In this document: piece after piece, positions 6,675 through 7,373 of the stretch
Position numbering within the stretch: position 1 is the first letter of the stretch
Layout: every line of letters starts with the position of its first letter
Assembly: GCA_021324685.1 (NCBI GenBank)
Contig: JAJPIQ010000037.1
Coordinates: forward strand, 1-33,560
DNA: 33,560 bases
Source: Bacteroidota bacterium
Lineage (GTDB): Bacteria > Bacteroidota > Ignavibacteria > Palsa-1295
Direction of reading: 5' to 3'
Notes under the pieces: model-generated
Database searches by the model: none
What the model was told of the DNA's origin: nothing
What the model saw: only the letters and a program-made list of their open reading frames with translations
Made by a program: the position numbers and the translations under genes

Positions 6675-6710
6675 TACCACCGATTATGAACTCTTCCTCA
6701 TGGTCTTTTT

Positions 6711-6976
6711 GTAGTTTTACTACTTCTTTCGTCTAGTACGAAAGTCTTTACACGAGGTCTGCCTGGGTTGTACTCAGGTCCGTCGGGATAGAAAGATCCC
6801 GTCCTTGCCGCAAAGGTCGCGTGCGCCAAAGCGGTTTTCCAAGCGCACAGACCTTTCCGGTACTAACGTGAACGAACATGAGTAAGCGTTCACCGGAATG
6901 ATCGTGGTTGAAGTCGATGAATCAGAACCCATTCTCCGTGGCACCCAGCTTGCAAAAAGCTGGGTGTTACTCTTTT
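6711..6976 (+). ncRNA. Unidentified multi-hairpin RNA or leader with terminal terminator
   Basis: This stretch has no convincing reading frame but holds a chain of hairpins. They are GTAG/CTAC (6711-6723), CTTTCG/CGAAAG (6726-6744), CCTGGGT/ACTCAGG (6762-6778), GGGAT/ATCCC (6785-6800), a long arm AAAGGTC + GTGCGC / GCGCAC + GACCTTT (6812-6856), GTGAACG/CGTTCAC (6868-6893) and a 10-bp terminator-like stem (6942-6966). AGGTCTG at 6755-6761 can alternatively pair with CAGACCT at 6848-6854, which would disrupt the long arm, so a switch between two folds is conceivable. I do not recognise it as tmRNA, RNase P RNA, SRP RNA or a named riboswitch: no GAGGAAAGTCC, no tRNA-like domain, no B12 or TPP box. 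It could be a free small RNA or a cis-acting leader of the gene at 6990. Confidence 0.45.
6942..6976 (+). terminator. Rho-independent terminator-like hairpin before the secreted-protein gene
   Basis: CACCCAGCTT (6942-6951), loop GCAAA and AAGCTGGGTG (6957-6966) form a perfect 10-bp stem followed by TTACTCTTTT. It ends only 13 bp before the ATG at 6990. CTCTT within the tail can also pair with AAGAG of the ribosome-binding site. It is either the end of a small RNA or an attenuator controlling the next gene. Confidence 0.7.
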
Positions 6977-6989
6977 AAGAGGTATCATT

Positions 6990-7373
6990 ATGAAAACACT
7001 ATGCTTAATCCTGTTGGCGCTTGGGCTGAGTTATACTTCGCCTCGGGCGCAGGTGGGGGTCATTACTCGTACACGGAATGGGCGTGTCGTCTCTACGCAA
7101 GTTCTTCCAGGGACACGTATTCGGACGCAAACCTATAATCCGTTGACGCAGACGTACACCACGCGAGTCTATGGACGCCGGTTCTATCGAGAACGGCGAG
7201 ACCGGTCCTTCAATAACGGAACCGTCTATTCGACTCCGGGCGTGACGATCACAACACCAGGCTATTATAATAATTATAACAACAACGGCATTTTAAATGC
7301 TCGTTTACATGGCGGTGTGGCACACGCGTATGGCCTTCGCCACCGTTACGCACGAATGATGCGTGAGCGGTAA
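6990..7373 (+). CDS. Small secreted, Arg/Tyr-rich protein of unknown function
   Basis: The 127-residue protein has a clear signal peptide ending at SPRAQ (about residue 21). The mature part is rich in Arg, Tyr, Thr and Asn, with an Asn/Tyr run (YYNNYNNNG) and a basic C-terminus (RHRYARMMRER). No known domain is visible. A good ribosome-binding site (AGAGG at 6978-6982) sits 7 nt before the ATG, which supports the start. The gene is the only one between the structured RNA and a strong terminator at 7391, so it is probably monocistronic and perhaps governed by that RNA. It could be a small envelope or matrix protein, but no function can be assigned. Confidence 0.68.
   Translation: MKTLCLILLALGLSYTSPRAQVGVITRTRNGRVVSTQVLPGTRIRTQTYNPLTQTYTTRVYGRRFYRERRDRSFNNGTVYSTPGVTITTPGYYNNYNNNGILNARLHGGVAHAYGLRHRYARMMRER

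Follow-up and report, generated by a model that had tools for sequence, protein, structure and literature searches.

QrrX is an RNA sponge of the small RNAs Qrr1-4 in Vibrio cholerae, described by Hfq RIL-seq, which destabilises the Qrr RNAs (PMC9732341), and CJnc180/CJnc190 form an antagonist pair in Campylobacter jejuni (PMC8687705). Judged by complementarity only, these would be the functionally closest systems to a candidate RNA, hereafter RNA1, that we have characterised in a window of 33,560 nucleotides (the whole stretch of DNA analysed) from an uncultured member of the Kapabacteria. Like QrrX, RNA1 is a separately encoded RNA complementary to a conserved small RNA (RNA2), which it is proposed to inactivate by pairing; however, QrrX was established by experiment whereas RNA1 is placed beside it by its sequence, and no sequence relation between the two is claimed. 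With the Campylobacter pair it would share the antagonism of one small RNA by another via pairing, but CJnc180 lies in cis opposite its partner whereas RNA1 and RNA2 occupy separate loci, with an 18-nt complementary stretch and possible short sites between them. A further comparison is with attenuators and riboswitches, which RNA1 resembles in being a structured RNA with, in this genome, a terminator-like hairpin just before a start codon. It differs from them in that a dependent gene is missing in four of seven homologues, the candidate switch pairings are not conserved and no Rfam family is matched. RNA1 and RNA2 are thus two candidate regulatory RNAs, neither of them in Rfam, from a poorly studied lineage for which a full-text literature search combining Kapabacteria with 'small RNA' found nothing. 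If our proposal is correct, they would make up a small-RNA/anti-small-RNA pair defined at the sequence level, with an older regulated RNA and a younger antagonist, and would be useful for understanding the origins of sponges.

The region containing RNA1 had first been singled out for its structure (6711-6989), and this impression is borne out by the folding energy: positions 6700-6999 reach -106.3 kcal/mol against -81.2 +/- 4.4 kcal/mol in 200 dinucleotide shuffles, none of which equals it (z -5.74). The predicted transcript itself (Table 1) has a z of -4.8, falling to -2.3 for the body without its last 40 nt, and the seven predicted transcripts, one for each genome of the genus, range from -1.3 to -7.7 in full and from -0.2 to -4.2 when shortened in the same way. 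Much of the fold signal is therefore supplied by the terminator, which had likewise been correctly recognised in front of the secreted-protein gene as a terminator-like hairpin. The 3′ hairpin is present in every homologue; in G001 and G002 the T tail behind it is poor. No family of Rfam 15 was matched by RNA1 at the gathering score, and at E values up to 10 there was a chance match of mir-971 to the terminator and otherwise nothing credible, in agreement with the original failure to assign the RNA to a known class. A 6S RNA was considered and rejected, as RF00013 had no match on RNA1 or anywhere in the genome.

Table 1. Coordinates of RNA1, its parts and neighbours in the window, and of the proposed partner RNA2
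Feature	Position	Strand	Remarks
RNA1 promoter-like block	6687..6715	+	TGAACT (-35, within invariant TGAACTCTT), 17-nt spacer, TGTAGT (-10)
Predicted RNA1 transcript	6722..6976	+	about 255 nt; start inferred from -10 block, end from terminator
RNA1 5′ hairpin	6726..6744	+	minimum-energy fold; sequence not conserved
RNA1 invariant core CGAGGTCTGCCTGRGTTG, proposed RNA2-binding site	6753..6770	+	18 nt; 7/7 in genus, 0/287 others; complementary to RNA2 in 7/7
Hairpin CCTGGG-TTGTA-CTCAGG, contains core 3′ half	6762..6778	+	kept in this genome, G004, G005 and G006
RNA1 variable middle with hairpins	6779..6899	+	from homologue alignment; much of it inserted in this genome alone
TGGTTGA, perhaps a weak second site of complementarity to RNA2	6905..6911	+	7 bp, one G-U
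RNA1 terminator-like hairpin and T-rich tail	6938..6976	+	terminator scan; hairpin 6938-6970, 14 pairs
Sigma-54-like -24/-12 block TGGCAC-N5-TTGCA	6939..6954	+	within terminator left arm and loop
Short secreted-protein ORF adjoining RNA1	6990..7373	+	signal-peptide-like start; no Pfam match
RNA2	this genome (G000), contig C13:82022-82144	-	candidate undescribed small RNA, outside the window
RNA2 stretch CAGACCTCG	facing RNA1 core	-	stretch expected to pair with core

The comparison that follows is based on seven genomes of the genus, namely this one and G001-G006. DNA-level matches among 60 relatives were weak, and those in each of the six other members of the genus coincided on a single stretch. 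Read side by side, the seven copies have a common layout consisting of the promoter-like block, a changing 5′ part, the core, a changing middle and the 3′ hairpin; to these conserved features may be added the hairpin at 6762-6778 (in four members) and a GRTTGA motif found in most homologues and missing from G001. The extended -35 element TGAACTCTT is identical in all seven, and TGTA stands at -10 with equal spacing in five; a simple sigma-70 consensus scan did not score this block. The gene upstream is HPPD-like in five genomes, dapA-like in G003 and divergently oriented in G005, and the promoter-like block is kept in all seven although its upstream neighbour differs in the last two. Downstream there is a convergent gene in four genomes (G001, G002, G003 and G004), and a same-strand ORF for a secreted protein follows RNA1 in the other three only (this genome, G005 and G006). 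Given these differing neighbours on both sides, RNA1 is best understood as a gene in its own right, not as a leader belonging to the gene at 6990, and its identification from sequence comparison as an autonomous small-RNA gene with its own promoter-like block and terminator is well supported. Of the possibilities raised in the preliminary description, it is that of a free small RNA outside the known classes which gains from these results.

RNA1 appears to be restricted to this one genus. The core 18-mer CGAGGTCTGCCTGRGTTG is present as one copy in each of the seven genomes and, allowing up to one mismatch, in none of 287 other genomes of the class. Among 20 exact matches in a collection of named genomes, five are from the genus and are intergenic, with GAACTCTT lying 50-100 nt upstream; the remaining 15 fall within open frames and were discarded as chance. 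In sister genera the region beside the NYN gene is coding-like (uvrA-like by eye), and the RNA1 motif was not found there. The 3′ half of the core is contained in the hairpin at 6762-6778, in which one pair varies between GU, AU and GC among the four genomes that keep it and is never broken, weakly favouring a conserved structure. The predicted folds place part of the core in pairs internal to RNA1, such that binding of RNA2 to the free RNA would need this pairing to be opened.

The proposed partner emerged when the complement of the core, with up to three mismatches, was looked for in all seven genomes. Besides the core itself, this search returned one orthologous place per genome, with the letters CAACTCAATCAGACCTCG or, in G001 and G002, CAACTCAATCAGGCCTCG. 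On the RNA2 strand the site is flanked on one side by a hairpin, AGCCGGGGTCTAGGGACAACCTCCGGCT, and on the other by a strong terminator, CCTCGGGTAACTCTCACCACCCGGGG, which is followed by at least five T. Four RNA2 loci compared with Rfam at E values up to 1 gave no match. A covariance model built for RNA2 finds it in all seven genomes of the genus and in G007, G008, G010 and G011, which represent three other genera of the family (E values of 9e-6 to 6e-10), and an exact match from a pattern search of sister genera also points to RNA2 in G012. The 19-nt seed, AAGACACAACACAACTCAA, is identical across four genera, and in the terminator the loop CTCTCACC is nearly constant across genera and the stem letters change. 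A fixed seed joined to a changing terminator stem is what marks out a small RNA that works by base pairing, and RNA2 may be of greater importance than RNA1. Matches of the seed to possible mRNA targets did not clearly exceed the control, and a shared or conserved target was not found. In this genome and G006 the site complementary to the core is also found in a second tandem copy; the two genomes have a second, shortened module of hairpin, seed and terminator directly behind the first (G000:C13:81870-81990 and G006:C202:14614-14731). Well upstream of RNA2, a TTGGCCYG-N2-AATTG-like block is conserved in all seven genomes, the spacing of which resembles a degenerate sigma-54 site.

The core and RNA2 can form a duplex with helices of 9 bp and 7 bp on either side of a 2x2 loop, in which CGAGGUCUG-CC-UGRGUUG of RNA1 faces CAACUCA-AU-CAGACCUCG of RNA2, with energies between -25.2 and -26.7 kcal/mol over all allele combinations. 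This complementarity is found in each of the seven genomes and involves part of the RNA2 seed together with the genus-specific arm of the RNA2 terminator. Two positions vary, an A/G in the core and an A/G in RNA2, each leaving a standard or G-U pair; with only these two variable positions in seven genomes, two-sided compensatory change between core and RNA2 was not seen. A search of those sister genera which have RNA2, for a counterpart of RNA1 whose core had changed to compensate, led only to pattern matches that were RNA2 itself or open frames. Elsewhere in RNA1 there is a hint of a second site, complementary to CACAACTCAATCAG of RNA2 over 11 bp in G005, 10 bp in G006 and 7-8 bp in the other genomes. 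Compared with shuffles as ungapped helices against the narrow seed, this site has a p of about 3e-4 for the sum over genomes, in a post hoc test on related genomes, and a p of 0.16 in this genome alone, and gapped duplex energies outside the core showed no excess.

Based upon these observations, we propose that RNA1 acts in trans on RNA2 as a sponge or antagonist and is encoded by an autonomous gene restricted to one genus, and we put the probability of this reading at about 0.5. The sequences show the homology, the conserved layout and the complementarity in seven of seven genomes; a sponge function, the expression of both RNAs, their meeting in the cell and the direction of the effect are inferred. 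In this model RNA1 would sequester RNA2 in trans: the 5′ half of the core would pair with CAGACCUCG, a stretch reaching into the foot of the RNA2 terminator stem, and the 3′ half with the CAACUCA that closes the seed, so that binding would cover part of the single-stranded seed and invade the stem foot, possibly with assistance from the weaker second site. The seed would then be inaccessible to the mRNA targets of RNA2, or RNA2 would become prone to decay or read-through, or both. Because the pairing site combines a genus-specific stem foot with a family-wide seed, RNA1 has the look of a component added at the level of the genus to a regulator of greater age. The fuller picture, in which a young, genus-specific RNA1 controls an old, family-wide RNA2 through its seed and terminator foot, and the terminator arm of RNA1 may double as a sigma-54 promoter, is more tentative.

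The strongest alternative retains RNA1 as an autonomous, trans-acting RNA and holds either that its match to RNA2 is coincidental, the true partner being an mRNA or a protein, or that RNA2 represses or processes RNA1. The layout evidence for RNA1 is independent of RNA2, and by our estimate chance alone would supply an 18-mer site with two mismatches about 0.15 times in each genome, which means that the genome-wide match alone is not decisive. Set against this, in all seven genomes the place matched is the seed and terminator arm of a small RNA that is conserved, which chance would rarely achieve; a chance match landing on the seed of a conserved small RNA is far less likely than one to any two-mismatch site. 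We consider this explanation unlikely, while giving it appreciable weight.

Somewhat more doubtful, and compatible with the action of RNA1 as a sponge, is the idea that the 3′ hairpin is (also) a sigma-54 promoter of the gene at 6990, with a start near 6965. The motif TGGCAC-N5-TTGCA is exact at the RNA1 locus in four of the seven genomes (this one, G001, G005 and G006), with a differing N5. It is therefore exact in all three genomes that have the secreted-protein gene, and of the four that lack this gene three have a degenerate copy or none; a sigma-54 gene is present in all seven, and a transcript beginning at about 6965 would have a leader of 25 nt carrying AAGAGG (6977-6982). However, G001 retains the motif without the gene, the exact motif occurs at about control frequency (seven found genome-wide and a similar number in the control, hence no enrichment), and no activator site was identified.

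A role for RNA1 as a cis-acting attenuator or riboswitch of the gene at 6990, as entertained in the preliminary description, now seems very improbable. It would account for a terminator-like hairpin that ends 19 bp upstream of the start codon and for the ORF that follows RNA1 in two further genomes, and alternative pairings are indeed available in this genome: the letters of the two mutually exclusive helices are present as described, AGGTCTG (6755-6761) with CAGACCT (6848-6854) and AAAGGTC (6812-6818) with GACCTTT (6850-6856). The strands at 6812-6818 and 6848-6856 are, however, within an insertion that is unique to this genome and absent from the six homologues, which removes the support for a conserved switch. 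The conservation that was sought extends to the promoter-like block, the 18-nt core and the 3′ hairpin, and not to the proposed switch strands. The suggested pairing of the terminator tail with the ribosome-binding site fares similarly, in that CTCTT (6970-6974) can pair with AAGAG (6977-6981) near the start codon here but this is absent in G005 and G006. Together with the convergent gene that stands in place of the secreted-protein gene in the majority of homologues and the lack of an Rfam match, these findings leave the attenuator unsupported. The reading of the core as a DNA site or protein-binding motif common to both loci, suggested by the 15-16 of 18 letters that are equal between them, is just as implausible, because the letters of RNA2 are explained by its family-wide seed and its terminator stem, the stem half differs in sister genera, and the core, which does not form a dyad, falls within a transcript-like unit.

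To return to RNA1 as an autonomous gene, the ORF at 6990 is probably best regarded as a neighbour. A search for relatives of its product among the proteins of named genomes found none; the product is repeat-rich with a conserved NAR-HGG-AHAYG-like C-terminal part, and similar proteins are encoded behind RNA1 in G005 and G006. As a possible regulon motif, TGAACTCTT occurs at about twice the control count, but its matches are scattered and mostly contain two mismatches. Finally, the extended -35 block (6686-6701) forms a dyad, TGAAC-TCTT-GTTCA, in G005 and G006, being less symmetric in the others, and by eye this dyad is like GAAC-N4-GTTC repressor sites.
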